This document shows positions 5,346 to 61,466 of a stretch of 64,000 nt of DNA, piece by piece. Source of the stretch: Siphonodentalium dalli. Lineage: Eukaryota; Mollusca; Scaphopoda; Gadilida; Siphonodentaliidae. Under the pieces are notes generated by a model, which saw only the letters and a program-made list of their open reading frames with translations, had not been told where the DNA came from and ran no database searches. The stretch is taken from contig CP136069.1 in assembly GCA_032622095.1 (NCBI GenBank), forward strand, positions 7,022,036 through 7,086,035. The letters are read 5' to 3'. Made by a program: the position numbers and the translations under genes. Every line of letters starts with the position of its first letter. Positions within the stretch are counted from its first letter, which is position 1.

Positions 5346-5365
5346 CTGCAAATGAAGACGTTAAC

Positions 5366-6036
5366 TGATAAGATAAGATGATAAGATAAGACATGATAAA
5401 GATGATAAGATAAGATAATAAGATAAGATAAGATAAGATAATATAAGATAAGATAAGATGATAAGATATGATAAGATAAGATGATAAGATAATATAAGAT
5501 TTATTTGCATAAACATCAATAAAGGCAGTATGCTATTAACACAATGCATAATAAAACAATAATTAATAAATAATTACATGTGAACATGGCATGTCTATAT
5601 AACTATATGTGTTTTATTGTGTGATGGCGTGCATAATATTCATTCAGAATGCTTATCAAAGAAGTGCCGGACCATGTTGCAGATTTTGCTGCTGATGTCA
5701 GGGTTATCATTCGTCATTATAGAATTAAATTTCTGATCGTTTGACATACTTGTAAAATTACTGAGATAACTACCAACAATGTGGAAAAGTTCATTTCTGA
5801 GATAGAAATACCGGTAGTGTGGACATTCCATAATGAAGTGATACTCATTTTCTATATTAGAATCGGTCCTACATTTAAGGCACAATCTCTTCCCTTCCTT
5901 AATTATAGACTGATGATGTCTACCTTTCGCGATACAGAGTTTTGTAAAATTAATCCTATCTTTTACAGAAAGGGTGTTTGTTAAGTAAGTCTCTAAGACA
6001 TAACCATTTTTATGCATCACATGAATTCTAATGAGC
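5366..6036 (-). mobile_element. 5'-truncated LINE, 3' end with GATAA microsatellite tail
   Basis: A 132-codon frame (6038-5640) carries the C-terminal Cys/His motif of non-LTR retrotransposon polymerases (CLKC-x9-EYHFIMECPHY). The 3' UTR then ends in a GATAA-type repeat at 5366-5495. The clade is uncertain (I/Jockey group likely). It has the same orientation as the host gene, and its tail ends about 20 bp before the exon 11 acceptor. Confidence 0.85.
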
Positions 6037-15925: not shown

Positions 15926-16041
15926 CCGTTTGAGGCGCTGTGCCCTGATAATCGACCGAGTGCATAGGATTACGGAGAGCAGACAGGCTGCAATGACGAA
16001 ACTATCATAAATCGTCTGTGTTAACTGGATACTGATATCAT
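15926..16041 (-). CDS. TRPML: TRPML exon 8: transmembrane helix S2
   Basis: It encodes the split Asp codon 383 and residues 384-421. It reads DISIQLTQTIYDSFVIAACL, then LSVILCTRSIIRAQRLKR. FVIAACLLSVILCTRS corresponds to family S2 (D-x-VVI-x-CSLSLVLCTRS-like), followed by the basic cytosolic S2-S3 linker. The acceptor is TTTTTGCAG|ATGATA and the donor is AAACGG|GTATGT. It ends in phase 0. A degenerate tandem repeat of about 75 bp begins some 65 bp downstream of the donor. Confidence 0.93.
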
Positions 16042-36874: not shown

Positions 36875-37964
36875 TAACCCTTTCTCAACTAAAGCATCAT
36901 TGATGAGTAGTTATCCCATAGGAAATGTTCAGATAATAAGTGTAACCCTTTCTATACTAAAGCTTCATTGATGAGTAGTTATCCCTTAGGAAATGTTCAG
37001 ATAATAAGATTAACCCTTTCTATACTAAAGCATCATTGATGAGTAGTTATCCCATAGGAAATGTTCAGATAATAAGTTTAATCCTTTCTATACTAAAGCA
37101 TCATTGATGAGTAGTTATCCCATTGAAACGTTCAGATAATAAGTTTAACTCTTTCTCAACTAAAGCATCATTGATGAGTAGTTATCCCATAGGAAATGTT
37201 CAGATAATAAGTGTAACCCTTTCTATACTAAAGCATCATTGATGAGTAGTTATCCCATTGAAATGTTCAGATAACAAGTTTAACCCTTTCTATACTAAAG
37301 CATCATTGATCAGTAGTTATCCCATTGAAATGTTCAGATAATAAGTTTAACCCTTTCTCAACTAAAGCATCATTGATGAGTAATTATCCCATAGGAAATG
37401 TTCAGATAATAAGTTTAACCCTTTCTATACTAAAGCATCATTGATGAGTAGTTATCCCATAGGAAATGTTCAGATAATAAGTTTAACCCTTTCTATACTA
37501 AAGCATCATTGATGAGTAGTTATCCCATAGGAAATGTTCAGATAATAAGTTTAACCCTTTCTATACTAAAGCATCATTGATGAGTAGTTATACCATAGGA
37601 AACGTTCAGATAATAAGTTTAACCCTTTCTATACTAAAGCATCATTGGTGAGTAGTTATCCCATAGGAAATGTTCACATAATAAGTGTAACCCTTTCTAT
37701 ACTAAAGCATCATTGATGAGTAGTTATCCCATAGGAAATGTTCTGATAATAAGTTTAACCCTTTCTATACTAAAGCATCATTGATGAGTAGTTATCCCAT
37801 AGGAAATGTTCACATAATAAGTGTAACCCTTTCTATACTAAAGCATCATTGATGAGTAGTTATCCCATAGGAAATGTTCTGATAATAAGTTTAACCCTTT
37901 CTATACTAAAGCATCATTGATGAGTAGTTATCCCAAAGGAAATGTTCAGTTAATAAGTTCAACA
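36875..37964. repeat. 68-bp satellite, 16 units
   Basis: The unit starts TAACCCTTTCTATACTAAAG and ends GTTCAGATAATAAGTT; some lack AGG. The unit resembles the left terminus of the TTAA element at 58319, and the element's right part follows at 37965-38152. Confidence 0.95.
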
Positions 37965-38152: not shown

Positions 38153-38295
38153 TTCAATGTTGAGAAATTTATTCAGACAACCTGTTTACTTGAAATAGGT
38201 CTTTCGAAACGAATCAATAGACGTCAAAATCTTGACGGAATGATGATGGGATTGACAGGACACAACATTGTTGAAACGGTTGTTCGCTATACTGT

Positions 38296-38440
38296 GAAGT
38301 TTGATGTGTTTACCTTGGCCACGAAACTTGTGAAGTTCAATGTGTTTACCTTGGCCACGAAACTTGTGAAGTTCAATGTGTTTACCTTGGCCACGAAACT
38401 TGTGAAGTTCAATGTGTTTACCTTGGCCATGAAACTTGTA
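38296..38440. repeat. 36-bp tandem repeat, four units
   Basis: Unit TGTGTTTACCTTGGCCACGA plus 16 bp. On the gene's strand each unit carries CCAAG|GTAAAC, a donor-like word. Since 36 is a multiple of three, an apparent plus-strand ORF results. Confidence 0.92.
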
Positions 38441-38666: not shown

Positions 38667-39283
38667 CTTATGTCATGGGGGTTTATTACTTATGTCATGG
38701 GGGTTTATTACTTATGTCATGGGGGTTTATTACTTATGTCATGGGGGTTTATTACTTATGTCATGGGGGTTTATTACTTATGTCATGGGGGTTTATTACT
38801 TATGTCATGGGGGTTTATTACTTATGTCATGGGGGTTTATTACTTATGTCATGGGGGTTTATTACTTATGTCATGGGGGTTTATTACTTATGTCATGGGG
38901 GTTTATTACTTATGTCATGGGGGTTTATTACTTATGTCATGGGGGTTTATTACTTATGTCATGGGGGTTTATTACTTATGTCATGGGGGTTTATTACTTA
39001 TGTCATGGGGGTTTATTACTTATGTCATGGGGGTTTATTACTTATGTCATGGGGGTTTATTACTTATGTCATGGGGGTTTATTACTTATGTCATGGGGGT
39101 TTATTACTTATGTCATGGGGGTTTATTACTTATGTCATGGGGGTTTATTACTTATGTCATGGGGGTTTATTACTTATGTCATGGGGGTTTATTACTTATG
39201 TCATGGGGGTTTATTACTTATGTCATGGGGGTTTATTACTTATGTCATGGGGGTTTATTACTTATGTCATGGGGGTTTATTAC
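38667..39283. repeat. 22-bp satellite, 28 identical units
   Basis: Unit TTATGTCATGGGGGTTTATT plus AC with no variation seen. Several frames are open by accident of unit length and composition. Confidence 0.97.
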
Positions 39284-39395
39284 TTGTGATGAAATTACTG
39301 TTTTGACTTTACCGGCTTGCCTTGTCACAACTTCTGAATCCATTCTGTTCAAAACTAAATAAAACTAGAGGTGTGACTGTCCCAATAAAATACTG

Positions 39396-39969: not shown

Positions 39970-40120
39970 CTGTCTCTTGCTCGCTATCAAATACATAGGT
40001 CTCGTTACTGAAGAAGTTGCCTAGTTCATAGTAAGTCTTGCATAAAACAGGTGGTGTAACTGTACCATTCTGTACATCATACGTGAATGCTGACAGCGAT
40101 TGGTCTGGAACTATACTGTA
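39970..40120 (-). CDS. TRPML: TRPML exon 4: lumenal domain, first cysteine
   Basis: It encodes residues 231-280 plus one base. It reads YSIVPDQSLSAFTYD, then PPVLCKTYYELGNFF and NETYVFDSEQET. The LC-x3-Y pattern is the family's first lumenal cysteine, expected to pair with the cysteine of exon 5, 25 residues later. NGT and NET are possible N-glycosylation sites. The acceptor is GATTTTCAG|TACAGT and the donor is GAGACAG|GTGAGTT. The donor bases, with the last exonic G, form the right target duplication of a family B MITE (39709-39962), so the intron starts with 7 bp of host sequence and then the transposon. A family A MITE ends 37 bp upstream of the acceptor, and an inverted copy of the acceptor region lies at 39396-39430. 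Confidence 0.93.
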
Positions 40121-40156
40121 CTGAAAATCAACCGAACAAACAAGAAAGTCTTGAAA

Positions 40157-43208: not shown

Positions 43209-43400
43209 CTGGTTTAATGCAAAGTCTAAGTGCTCAATAAGAGACTGCCTCGTATATAGAGCATAGGCACCAGTCGCGGGAGGATAAGGTAAGGTCTCGT
43301 AGCTAGGATCCCAGTCTTTGAGCAGCAGATGTTTCATAGCAATCGAGTTCCTCTCAACGTAGTCAACAAACTTACATCTGTATTTACCAAACAGCACGAG
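43209..43400 (-). CDS. TRPML: TRPML exon 3: rest of S1 and start of the lumenal domain
   Basis: It encodes 64 codons, residues 167-230, phase 0 at both ends. It opens with LVLFGKYRC, completing S1, then ERNSIAMKHLLLKDWD, PYPPATGAYALYT and HLDFALNQ. These match the first lumenal strand and helix of mucolipins (family pattern N-x-AFKHLFLK, then PPATG-x-YA-x-YT). The acceptor is CATTTTTAG|CTCGTG and the donor is AACCAG|GTAGGA. The first 40 to 45 exonic bases and about 30 intronic bases upstream are copied several more times inside intron 2 (43430-43480 and 45713-45957), each keeping an AG. The reading frame itself is clean. Confidence 0.95.
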
Positions 43401-43429
43401 CTAAAAATGAAAGACAATTCATCAGCAGA

Positions 43430-43480
43430 ACGTAGTCAACAAACTTGCATCTGTATTTACCAAACAGCACGAGCTAATGA
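43430..43480 (-). repeat. Copy of the TRPML exon 3 acceptor
   Basis: On the minus strand it carries an AG followed by the first 40-odd exonic bases of exon 3, with one or two changes. It lies 30 bp upstream of the real acceptor and would act as a decoy 3' splice site. Confidence 0.8.
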
Positions 43481-52713: not shown

Positions 52714-55700
52714 AATCATAATAACTAACCTGATATGTGACTAACCTGATATGTGACTAACCTGATATGTGACTAACCTGATATGTGACTAACCTGATAT
52801 GTGACTAACCTGATATGTTACTAACCTGATGTTACTAACCTGATATGTTACTAACCTGATATGTGACTAACCTGATATGTGACTAACCTGATATGTGACT
52901 AACCTGATATGTTACTAACCTGATATGTTACTAACCTGATATGTTATTAACCTGATATGTTACTAACCTGATATGTTACTAACCTGATATGTGACTAAAT
53001 TGATATGTAACTAACCTGATATGTGACTAACCTGATATGTGACTAACCTGATATGTGACTAACCTGATATGTTACTAACCTGATATGTGACTAAATTGAT
53101 ATGTAACTAACCTGATATGTGACTAACCTGATATGTATCTAACCTGATATGTGACTAACCTGATATGTGACTAACCTGATATGTGACTAAATTGATATGT
53201 AACTAACCTGATATGTGACTAACCTGATATGTATCTAACCTGATATGTGACTAACCTGATATGTGACTAACCTGATATGTATCTAACCTGATATGTGACT
53301 AACCTGATATGTGACTAACCTGATATGTAACTAACCTGATATGTGACTAACCTGATATGTGACTAACCTGATATGTGACTAACCTGATATGTATCTAACC
53401 TGATATGTGACTAACCTGATATGTAACTAACCTGATATGTAACTAACCTGATATGTGACTAACCTGATATGTATCTAACCTGATATGTGACTAACCTGAT
53501 ATGTGACTAACCTGATATGTATCTAGCCTGATATGTGACTAACCTGATATGTGACTAACCTGATATGTGACTAACCTGATATGTATCTAGCCTGATATGT
53601 GACTAAATTGATATGTGACTAACCTGATATGTGACTAACCTGATATGTGACTAACCTGATATGTGACTAACCTGATATGTGATTAACCTGATATGTTACT
53701 AACCTGATATGTTACTAACCTGATATGTTACTAACCTGATATGTTACTAAATTGATATGTAACTAACCTGATATGTGACTAACCTGATATGTGACTAACC
53801 TGATATGTGACTAACCTGATATGTGACTAACCTGATATGTTACTAACCTGATATGTGACTAAATTGATATGTAACTAACCTGATATGTGACTAACCTGAT
53901 ATGTATCTAACCTGATATGTGACTAACCTGATATGTGACTAACCTGATATGTTACTAACCTGATATGTGACTAAATTGATATGTAACTAACCTGATATGT
54001 GACTAACCTGATATGTATCTAACCTGATATGTGACTAACCTGATATGTGACTAACCTGATATGTATCTAACATGATATGTGACTAACCTGATATGTGACT
54101 AACCTGATATGTGACTAACCTGATATGTGACTAACCTGATATGTGACTAACCTGATATGTATCTAACCTGATATGTGACTAACCTGATATGTAACTAACC
54201 TGATATGTAACTAACCTGATATGTGACTAACCTGATATGTATCTAACCTGATATGTGACTAACCTGATATGTGACTAACCTGATATGTATCTAACCTGAT
54301 ATGTGACTAACCTGATATGTAACTAACCTGATATGTAACTAACCTGATATGTGACTAACCTGATATGTATCTAACCTGATATGTGACTAAATTGATATGT
54401 GACTAACCTGATATGTGACTAAATTGATATGTATCTAACCTGATATGTGACTAACTTGATATGTGACTAAATTGATAAGTATCTAACCTGATATGTGACT
54501 AAATTGATATGTAACTAACCTGATATGTGACTAACCTGATATTGACTAACCTGATATGTGACTAAACTGATGTGACTAACCTGATATTGACTAGCCTCAT
54601 ATGTGATTAACCTGATGTGTGACTAACCTGATATGTAACTAACCTGATATTGACTAACCTGATATGTGACTAACCTGATATTGACTAACCTGATATGTGA
54701 CTAACCTGATGTTGACTAACCTGATATTGACTAACCTGATATTGACTAACCTGATATTGACTAACCTGATATGTGACTAACCTGATATGTGACTAACCTG
54801 ATATGTGACTAACTTGATGTGTTCATAGTGACTAAATTGATATGTGACTAAATTGATGTGTGACGAACCTGATATTGACAAACCTGATATGTGACTAACC
54901 AAGTAACTAACCTGAAATGTGACTGACCTGATATGTGACTAACCTGGTATGTGACTAACCTGATGTGTTCATAGTGACTAAATTGATATGTGACAAACTG
55001 ATATGTGACTAACCTGACATGTGACTAACCAGATATGTGACTAACCTGACATGTGACTAACCTGATATGTGACTAACCTGATATTGACTAACTGATATGT
55101 TACTGACCTGATATGTGACTAACCTGATAAGTGACTAACCATGTGACTAACCTGATATGTGACTAACCTGATGTGACTAACCATGTGACTAACCTGATAT
55201 GTGACTAACCTGGTATGTGACTAACCTGATATGTGACTAACCTGATATTGACTAACCTGATATGTTACTGACCTGATATGTGACTAACCTGATAAGTGAC
55301 TAACCATGTGACTAACCTGATATGTGACTAACCTGATATTGACTAACCTGATGTTACTGACCTGATATGTGACTAACCTGATAAGTGACTAACCTGATAT
55401 TTGACTAACCTGATATGTGACTAACCATGTGACTAACCATGTGACTAACCTGGTATGTGACTAACCTGATATGTGACTAACCTGATATTGACTAACCAGA
55501 TATGTGACTAACCTGATATTGACTAACCAGATATGTGACTAACCTGATATGTGACTAACCTTATATGTGACTAACCTGATATGTGACTAACCTGATATGT
55601 GATTAACCTGATATGTGACTAACCTGATGTGTGACTAACCATGTGACTAACCTGATATGTGACTAACCTGATGTGACTAACCATGTGACTAACCTGATAT

Positions 55701-56608
55701 GTGACTAACCTGATATGTGACTAACCATGTGACTAACATGATATTGACTAACCTGATATGTGACTAACCTGATATGTGACTAACCTGATGTGTGACTAAC
55801 CATGTGACTAACCTGATGTGTGACTAACCTGATGTGACTAACCATGTGACTAACCTGATATGTGACTAACCATGTGACTAACCTGATATTGACTAACCTG
55901 ATATGTGACTAACCTGATATTAACTAACCTGATGTGTGACTAACCTGATATTGACTAACCAGATATGTGACTAACCTGATATGTGACTAACCTGATATGT
56001 GACTAACCTGATATGTGACTAACCTGATATGTGACTAACCTGATATGTGACTAACCGTGTGACTAACCATGTGACTAACCTGATATGTGACTAACCATGT
56101 GACTAACCATGTGACTAACCTGATATGTGACTAACCTGATGTGTGACTAACCTGATGTGTGACTAACCTGATGTGACTAACCATGTGACTAACCTGATAT
56201 GTGACTAACCTGATATGTGACTAACCTGATATGTGACTAACCTGATATGTGACTAACCTGATGTGTGACTAACCTGATGTGACTAACCATGTGACTAACC
56301 TGATATGTGACTAACCTGATATGTATCTAACCTGATATGTGACTAACCTGATATGTGACTAACATGATATTGACTAACCTGATATGTGACTAACCTGATA
56401 TGTGACTAACCTGATATGTGACTAAACTGATATGTGAATAACCTGATATGTGACTAACCTGATAAATGACTAACCTGACGTGTGACTAACCTGATATGTG
56501 AATAACCTGATATGTGACTAACCTGATAAATGACTAACCTGATGTGACTAACCATGTGACTAACCATGTGACTAACCTGATATGTGACTAACCTGATATG
56601 TGACTAAC
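52714..56608. repeat. 16-bp satellite seeded by the exon 2 splice donor, about 240 units
   Basis: On the gene's strand the unit is GTCACATATCAGGTTA. It continues exon 2 without a break: 12 exonic bases (codons VTYQ) plus GTTA. Variants include ATATCAGGTTAGATAC and shortened 14-bp and 12-bp forms, more frequent toward the exon. Nearly every unit holds CAG|GTTAG. Confidence 0.97.
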
Positions 56609-56856
56609 CTGATATGTGACCAGAATAACCTTGATGAGCTGCAGCATGAGTTTGTAAGGCACTCTCCGTCGAGCTTTAAATTTCTGAATCGGGTCCATAA
56701 AATGAAACTTGAGCATTCTGCGGAATCGGTCTTCCATGTGAGGCGTATACGCTGACTTCATGTCATGATCGGCTCTCTGGATATCTTCCTCCTGTATGCT
56801 AGCATGAGATGCATCCCTCACGTCGAAATGACCCCCACTGTTTTCTTCTTCATCAT
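56609..56856 (-). CDS. TRPML: TRPML exon 2: polybasic lipid-binding segment and start of S1
   Basis: It encodes residues 84 (split) to 166. The end is diagnostic for mucolipins: EDRFRRMLKFHFMDP, then KFKARRRVPYKLMLQ, then IKVILVTYQ. The Arg/Lys cluster matches the family's PI(3,5)P2-binding pocket, and LMLQLIKVILVTYQ starts transmembrane helix S1, which continues in exon 3. The acceptor is TTTACTTTAG|ATGATG and the donor is ACATATCAG|GTTAGT. It begins with two bases of a split codon and ends in phase 0. The last 12 exonic bases plus four intronic bases are the exact monomer of the 3.9-kb satellite that follows in the intron. Only 11 bp of intron separate the acceptor from the TTAA end of an inserted element. 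Confidence 0.95.
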
Positions 56857-60586: not shown

Positions 60587-60788
60587 CAATGAACCCATTT
60601 TTTCAAGCGTTTATAGCATAAATGATGCACAACTGTCTTTAACTACTCAAAAGCTGATGTTTCATGTTATTCTACAGAGATAGTGTGTCAAAAAATATCA
60701 CCAACTGTAAATGAATGGAAATCAAGTAACTTTACATACATGTACTGTAAGTGAGTATCAAAGTGTTAAGTTATCAAAGAAATAAACA

Positions 60789-61216
60789 CTAAACATACCT
60801 GAGTCACGAAATAACACTAAACTTACCTGAGTCACGAAATAACACTAAACATACCTGAGTCACGAAATAACACTATATGTAACTGAGTTAAGAAATAACA
60901 CTAAACTTACCGGAGTCAAGAAATAACACTAAACATACCTGAGTCACGAAATAACACTAAACTTACCGGAGTCAAGAAATAACACTATATGTAACTGAGT
61001 TAAGAAATAACACTAAACTTACCGGAGTCAAGAAATAACACTAAACTTACCTGAGTCACGAAATAACACTAAACATACCTGAGTCACGAAATAACACTAA
61101 ACTTACCGGAGTCAAGAAATAACACTATATGTAACTGAGTCAAGAAATAACACTAAACGTACCACGTCAAGAAATAACACTAAACATACCACGTCAAGAA
61201 ATAACACTAAACGTAC
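60789..61216. repeat. 28-bp tandem array seeded by the exon 1 splice donor, about 15 units
   Basis: On the gene's strand each unit holds TTGACTCAG|GTAAGTTTAG or variants (GTATGT, GTACGT, CCGGTAAG). It runs directly from the exon 1 donor; the first two intronic units have lost CTCAG. Confidence 0.95.
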
Positions 61217-61466
61217 CTGAGTCAGACAAGTCACTATTGTCCAGGTTACCCAGATAGGAAATTTTCGATTTTGTCCGCCTTTTACTGAAATCATCAGGCC
61301 TGAGTCGATTGTGGTCAGCCATATTGTCAGATGACCCATAAGTCATAGCCCTCTGACGACCAGTAGAATCTGTACTATCCACATCATCCACAGTAATGTC
61401 AGTGTGACGTCTGATAGCTGGTGCTCCAGGACTTCGACTCCGATTGCGATAAATTGATGGGTTCAT
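61217..61466 (-). CDS. TRPML: TRPML exon 1: start codon and variable cytosolic N terminus
   Basis: It encodes residues 1-83 plus one base of codon 84. ATG is at 61466-61464 and an in-frame TAA lies at 61478-61476 with no AG acceptor between, so this is probably the true start. The sequence is hydrophilic, rich in Ser, Asp and Arg (MNPSIYRNRSRSPGAP, then DVDSTDSTGRQR), with no membrane segment and no domain I recognise. I assign it to this gene because its donor (CTCAG|GTACGT) leaves one base and the exon 2 acceptor supplies two, making an Asp codon that continues an acidic run. Family N termini are poorly conserved, so homology does not prove the link. The donor is followed at once by a 28-bp tandem array carrying the same splice signal. 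An unseen upstream non-coding exon is possible. Confidence 0.75.

Follow-up and report, generated by a model that had tools for sequence, protein, structure and literature searches.

Tandem arrays at splice donors of a mucolipin gene and of other genes in Siphonodentalium dalli

Repeats known at exon ends

Human CBS carries a 31-bp VNTR, c.1444_1467+7(16_21), in 16 to 21 copies (PMC2630376). By that name its unit takes in the final 24 nucleotides of an exon and the initial 7 of the intron, with a donor in each copy. Two arrays in a mucolipin (TRPML) gene of the scaphopod S. dalli have this layout, the unit straddling the donor with 12 + 4 nt at exon 2 and 8 + 20 nt at exon 1. As presented in the cited passages, the VNTR concerns a single gene in humans, with some 20 copies and a copy number that is polymorphic in people, whereas here a single assembly has about 240 units in one array, a second array in the same gene and further arrays in other genes. 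The minisatellite of human IFI6 (6-16, G1P3), described by Turri, Cuin and Porter in 1995, reportedly has a 12-bp unit in about 26 copies. Two of its downstream units are used as donors, yielding three mRNA species (PMC4526556). As far as the passages cited go, the resemblance to the mucolipin arrays is that a minisatellite provides multiple splice donors; in contrast to the used units of IFI6, the downstream mucolipin donors that were tested all give a predicted early stop. An earlier note on this DNA knew of no described satellite of this kind, a statement that the layout of the CBS VNTR and the extra donors of the IFI6 minisatellite contradict. In human segmental duplications, expanded tandem repeats on exon-intron boundaries alter splicing; introns of recent human paralogues show 27 modifications, and variable repeats average 30-bp units in four copies (PMC2812944). 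These repeats share their position on exon-intron boundaries with the mucolipin arrays, and the cited passages describe no donor-specific excess among them. Intron gain by tandem duplication, as is reported for potato RdRp (PMC4974935), is alike in that the duplication provides splice sites, but it creates a new intron, whereas the mucolipin intron was already present, as in its paralogue.

In the open literature, with most subscription papers outside that scope, no title was found that treats donor-straddling arrays as a common genome feature. What is new here is the size of the array, the presence of two in one gene and their apparent frequency, the layout itself having human precedents. The human precedents CBS and IFI6 are isolated cases, and about 9% of sampled donors (13/140) lie in arrays here. 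Such a genome would offer natural replicates on spliceosome choice among many identical 5′ splice sites, and would show both a route of intron growth and a place to seek a duplication process linked to donors. An extreme test case would be the mucolipin gene, where exon 2 has about 240 units, exon 1 has 16 and the acceptor of exon 3 is duplicated.

Two donor arrays in the mucolipin gene

The window, meaning the whole 64-kb stretch analyzed (C9:7022036-7086035, from a 2.23-Gb genome in 9 contigs), contains the mucolipin gene on its minus strand, with eight coding exons placed by means including tblastn with a human mucolipin-1 sequence as query. Read directly, the coding part of exon 1 from the ATG, an assumed start codon (61217..61466, minus strand), ends TCTGACTCAG|GTACGT in phase 1. 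Exon 2 (56609..56856, minus strand), identified by tblastn, PDB mucolipins and its open frame, ends VTYQ in phase 0, and exon 3 (43209..43400, minus strand) begins LVLFG after TTTTTAG and joins the open frame. Further coding exons on the minus strand were placed at 39970-40123 and near 16012, 13804, 9080 and 5348. A search of the genome with the Pfam MCLN_ECD profile gave no match, so exons between 39970 and 16012 are unplaced. All splice sites are predicted from sequence; exons 1 to 3 form one open frame across the phase 1 and phase 0 introns. Exons 2 and 3 match PDB mucolipins with E values down to 9e-20, and the alignment crosses their junction without a gap (...ILVTYQ|LVLFG against ...MVTIQLVLFG of mucolipin-3). 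The likening of VTYQ to a conserved V-T-x-Q fits the three solved mucolipins in the alignments listed. By TRF, two of the eight placed donors are inside arrays.

Of these two, the larger consists of 16-bp units (52724..56620, minus strand) and occupies 3.9 kb of intron 2, which is 13.2 kb long. TRF reports a single array of period 16 (250 copies, 88% matches), and cutting it into units gave 239-240 pieces. Raw sequence and TRF agree with the earlier note that some 240 units run unbroken from exon 2; as minor corrections, the TRF edge is 52724 rather than 52714, and the last base of exon 2 is 56609. The end of exon 2 reads GTC ACA TAT CAG (VTYQ), written GTCACATATCAG|GTTA, and the exon-most unit, the presumed seed (56605..56620, minus strand), is exactly those 12 exonic nucleotides plus intronic GTTA, as had been claimed. 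Exact GTCACATATCAGGTTA makes up 104 pieces. The array contains 173 copies of CAGGTTAGT, each with CAG|GTTAGT intact, in keeping with the predicted hundreds of 5′ splice sites in intron 2, and 218 copies of GGTTA. Shortened units are indeed commoner near the exon, full 16-nt pieces numbering 68/120 in the exon-proximal half and 112/120 in the far half. Intron 2 reads GTTAGTTATTATG beyond the last unit, from which it follows that the duplication linked position +4 of the intron to position −12 of the exon; by eye, the joint shows 2 nt of homology (GT).

A 32-mer of two units matched the genome 43 times, always at the exon 2 locus, and its reversed pattern matched nowhere, which excludes chance. 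A 20-mer of the unit, with at most one mismatch, had 143 matches (2 forward, 141 reverse) against none for the reversed control; among the 100 of 143 matches listed, 61 exact and 38 one-mismatch sites lie at the exon 2 locus, and one, a single one-mismatch site, lies on C6. Thus no array of this unit was found elsewhere in the 2.2-Gb genome, taking all matches of the 32-mer and the 100 of 143 listed for the 20-mer, and the satellite at many unrelated loci, named beforehand as a refuting result, was within that scope not seen. The other refuting result, an orthologous exon 2 end unlike the unit, was not seen either in the one comparison made, with a paralogue. This mucolipin paralogue (C9:6892514-6894295) is on the same chromosome, at a distance of about 180 kb. 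Its exon 2 ends ATTCTGGTTACAACTCAG|GTAGGA and encodes VTTQ, with 9 of 12 bases like the exonic part of the unit; an intron follows at the same position, and the matched exons 2 and 3 are about 1.4 kb apart. No donor array was found in the paralogue's exon 2-3 intron; the array is therefore younger than both the exon end and the position of the intron. Together with the finding of the array at the exon 2 locus only, the array-free paralogous exon shows that the exon seeded the array, as first proposed from its protein-conserved end. Intron gain by tandem duplication was considered for intron 2 and is ruled out by the paralogue's intron at the same position. Deeper in the paralogue's intron, a 70-bp array of four copies resembles a 68-bp array at window positions 36875-37963.

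A second donor-straddling array, found by TRF and absent from the earlier note, follows exon 1 (60777..61224, minus strand; 28 bp × 16) and includes the last 8 nt of that exon. Its unit, GACTCAGGTAAGTTTAGTGTTATTTCTT, joins 8 exonic to 20 intronic nucleotides and multiplies the donor GACTCAG|GTACGT. Thirteen donors in it score 6.5-12.6, several downstream ones above the first. With up to two mismatches, the unit has 10 matches in the genome, all at the exon 1 locus. The two units are unrelated and each was found as an array only at its own exon; the two arrays are independent of each other. The arrangement is not peculiar to exon 2, being present at exon 1 as well, and in other genes of the genome.

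That a dispersed satellite or transposable element simply lies beside exon 2 and resembles its end by coincidence is barely credible. The window and the genome do contain such families (e.g., an element of about 103 bp, GCAGAATGAGGTCCCC, and, at L008/L010, units of CCAATACAGGTAAGTG); against this, 12 exonic nucleotides are identical to the unit, the array was found only at the exon 2 locus, and other exons show the same layout with a different unit. A dispersed satellite family as source of both mucolipin units was likewise considered and rejected, each array having been found only at its own exon (for exon 2, among all matches of the 32-mer and the 100 of 143 listed for the 20-mer).

Other repeats accompany this gene. 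The first 45 nt of exon 3, in a feature likewise absent from the earlier note, occur in an extra copy with its own AG, read directly 73 nt upstream (43429..43475, minus strand), an acceptor-side duplication of two copies. On another chromosome, a stray 126 nt of exon 3, 97.6% identical, was found at positions 348-473 of C3:90574900-90575800 (L156). A mucolipin intron holds a 22-bp array at window positions 38667-39285 (28 copies, 100% TRF matches, minus-strand unit TAATAAACCCCCATGACATAAG), and a 36-bp array of four copies at 38293-38439 has a donor-like GGCCAAG|GTAAACA in its minus-strand unit; no exon was recognized beside either. At 5367-5500, an array of TTATC type ends about 20 nt upstream of the exon near 5348, on its acceptor side.

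Probable tolerance and use of the donor copies

We consider it fairly probable that a duplication across a 5′ splice site was tolerated and that arrays then grew within the intron. A short tandem duplication spanning the site would copy the last bases of the exon together with the first bases of the intron, and the exon-most copy would keep the original exon-intron joint. With that donor left in place, the mRNA would be unchanged as long as the exon-most donor is used; further copies would lie in the intron, where slippage or unequal exchange could multiply them freely. The mucolipin gene would have undergone this on separate occasions, at exon 1 with a 28-bp unit and at exon 2 with a 16-bp unit. 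Consistent with tolerance, exon 2 is protein-conserved and is kept in the paralogue that has no donor array. The downstream donors tested, six in intron 2 and ten in intron 1, all lead to a stop within 10 codons of the exon end, so selection should act on use of the exon-most donor, but need not act on the remainder of the array. The exon-most donor is presumably the one used, and the arrays would persist through tolerance at donors rather than through benefit. With donors of equal strength, splicing may well use intron-proximal copies.

Two of the same observations could be read as signs of function, in which many U1-binding donors at the start of a long intron would recruit U1 snRNP, stabilize donor choice or switch expression by sending transcripts to premature stops: the 173 perfect CAG|GTTAGT sites lie in one intron, and all alternative donors tested give early stops. 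Also in this direction, donor-centered 9-mers are the best preserved of the exon 2 array (186, 184 and 173 copies; the worst have 124-128), a possible hint of constraint, except that amplified variants are not independent; the units being copies of one another, no conclusion is drawn from this preservation. We nevertheless regard maintenance for function as quite improbable. Units of other arrays in the genome include up to 72 exonic nucleotides, needless for a U1 site, first donors are weak at five loci (scores 3.5-5.6 in L041, L044, L072, L076, and L088), the donor is gone from some units at exon 2 (e.g., AATTTA in place of AGGTTA), and the mucolipin paralogue does without an array.

Donor arrays elsewhere in the genome

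Donor arrays recur in other genes. Exons were sampled from Pfam domain matches to kinesin (100/123), myosin (27/85) and ABC transporter (13/19), 140 exons at 66 gene loci; left out were 23/123 kinesin matches (7 near-duplicates within the first 87 and a further 16 within the final 36), 58/85 myosin matches (most of them tandem-cluster copies) and 6/19 ABC matches. For each exon, 450 bp on either side were searched with TRF (score at least 60, period at least 9). An automatic score assigned the splice sites, with manual correction at 11 loci picked because arrays were present (donors of L060, L072, L097, L117, L119, and L148; acceptors of L087, L091, L100, L134, and L149). The search returned 56 arrays. 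In successive 75-nt bins from −150, donor-side array starts numbered 1, 13, 2, 6, 2, 3, 3, and 2; the bin size was picked after the data had been seen, and bins of 50 and 100 nt gave the same picture. The 13 starts represent exons whose last 75 nt hold the start of an array that runs into the intron, all read by eye, and amount to 12 events, as L117 and L119 share one. By family, they fall in kinesin (10/100), myosin (2/27, one shared event) and ABC transporter exons (1/13). The sample suggests that about one exon in eleven of this genome carries such a repeat at its splice donor.

Unit length in the 13 straddling arrays ranges from 30 to 95 bp, the exonic part from 12 to 72 nt and the intronic part from 5 to 33 nt; unit length is a multiple of three in 6/13, as expected of roughly arbitrary duplications. 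Examples are ATGAACCTAGTAGATTTAGCAG|GTAACTATGACT in 14 copies (L062), CACGATTACTCAAA|GTATGTATAAATCTCT in 14.5 copies (L060) and a 60-bp unit in eight copies in an ABC gene (L148). Later donor copies in these survey arrays are mostly as strong as the first, and weaker than it in L097, L117, and L119. Homology at the joint, judged by eye, was seen at L068 (7 nt, TTAACCC) and L076 (3 nt) as at mucolipin exon 2, and was not evident at the other loci read. Three near-identical kinesin copies on C7 share a 30-bp donor array with 14.5, 14.5, and 11.5 units; on the simplest reading, that array is older than the duplications of the copies and its copy number has changed since. A different repeat, a 37-bp array in the intron upstream of the kinesin exon, occupies positions 1-182 of L060 (C7:209492254-209493297) and ends about 275 nt before the exon; about 26 nt of its unit resemble the interior of the exon itself (GTAACGTAATCAGCRCCCTCGGTRAT), and the two paralogues have it as well.

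Across the 140 exons, the last 75 nt of exons have about 4-fold the density of array starts seen in an intron bin of 75 nt, an excess that tolerance alone does not predict. Twelve of 28 events fall in the donor bin, against one bin in six expected (binomial p 0.001), and 12 of 25 when three copies of a dispersed element are set aside (p 0.0003). Such figures are what would be seen if, in this lineage, tandem duplications had a mutational hotspot at 5′ splice sites, e.g., through strand exposure, pausing or repair acting co-transcriptionally near exon ends, with seeding far commoner at donors than elsewhere. In favor of a hotspot, the 13 straddling rows and 12 events stand against 16 starts in five intron bins, and straddling arrays more often reach at least three copies (8/13 versus 2/18 of other donor-side arrays, p 0.005). 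Acceptors show no comparable excess among the 140 exons: four array ends lie in the first 75 nt of exons (L060, L091, L100, and L149, that of L060 exactly at the junction) and 19 in the five nearest intron bins (3, 3, 6, 4, and 3), so that 4/23 fall at the exon (p 0.55). The difference between donors (12/140) and acceptors (4/140) has a one-sided p of 0.034. We nonetheless hold a hotspot to be unlikely. With the exons split in the order of sampling, the first 80 carry the excess, with nine donor events against eight intron starts over five bins (p 0.0007). The 60 that follow, with three events against eight starts (p 0.27), are not significant alone and so do not confirm it by themselves. Moreover, 100 of the 140 exons belong to one domain family, kinesin, intronic arrays may vanish or diverge faster, and selection against acceptor duplications could alone yield the asymmetry.

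A word test asked for a copy, within 150 nt, of the 20-mer across the donor. Copies were present at 9/80 donors, at 3 to 13 of 76-80 intron positions from +60 to +240, and at 1/80 acceptors at position 0 and 4/80 at −15. Array starts are the fairer measure; the counts at intron positions arise in part from donor arrays that reach that far. A broader and tentative picture of this genome we judge possible but doubtful: 5′ splice sites would be the birthplace of private minisatellites, nearly a tenth of introns would start with a donor-seeded array, introns would grow outward from their donors by a process that spares acceptors and mid-intron sequence, and the spliceosome would have to select, among equal sites numbering up to hundreds, the one nearest the exon.

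Triple-donor motifs gave examples in unrelated genes, and no rate. Three copies of CAGGTAAGT matched the genome 1330 times versus 396 for the reversed motif, and three of AAGGTAAGT 111 times versus 35. Use of these counts as an enrichment test was dropped, as the reversed motif is widespread too, mostly owing to a small number of dispersed repeat families, and match counts are therefore unclean. Among the matches listed for CAGGTAAGT, seven loci were represented; an exon with its donor in the array was evident at four (L005, L006, L009, and L011) and not at the other three. The matches listed for AAGGTAAGT came from about 22 loci, and the 5′ edge was examined at 20: seven have an evident exon (L159, L161, L168, L169, L172, L173, and L174), 11 have none (L166 doubtful), and at L160 and L162 the edge was beyond reach. 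Pfam was run on 10 of these 11 exons (L159 left out) and matched four; the other six are supported by a good acceptor followed by an open frame. L006 is USP47_C (1.6e-12) and L172 a signal peptide peptidase (1.3e-6; PDB 5e-4), both above cut-off. L161 resembles an SLC7-type amino acid transporter (amino acid permease; Pfam 1e-5, below cut-off; PDB 5e-7), and L169, weakly, a dynein heavy chain (dynein lid; Pfam 2.7e-4, below cut-off; PDB 0.009). At L011 (C2:28654400-28655700), a small exon-like frame is followed by GTGAGTGTATT.. units and then by CAGGTAAGT units. On C1 (231979802-232057385), a 26-bp satellite, CAGGTAAGTCTCGTACATACAACTAA, extends in pieces over at least 77 kb, many of its units having a perfect donor consensus.
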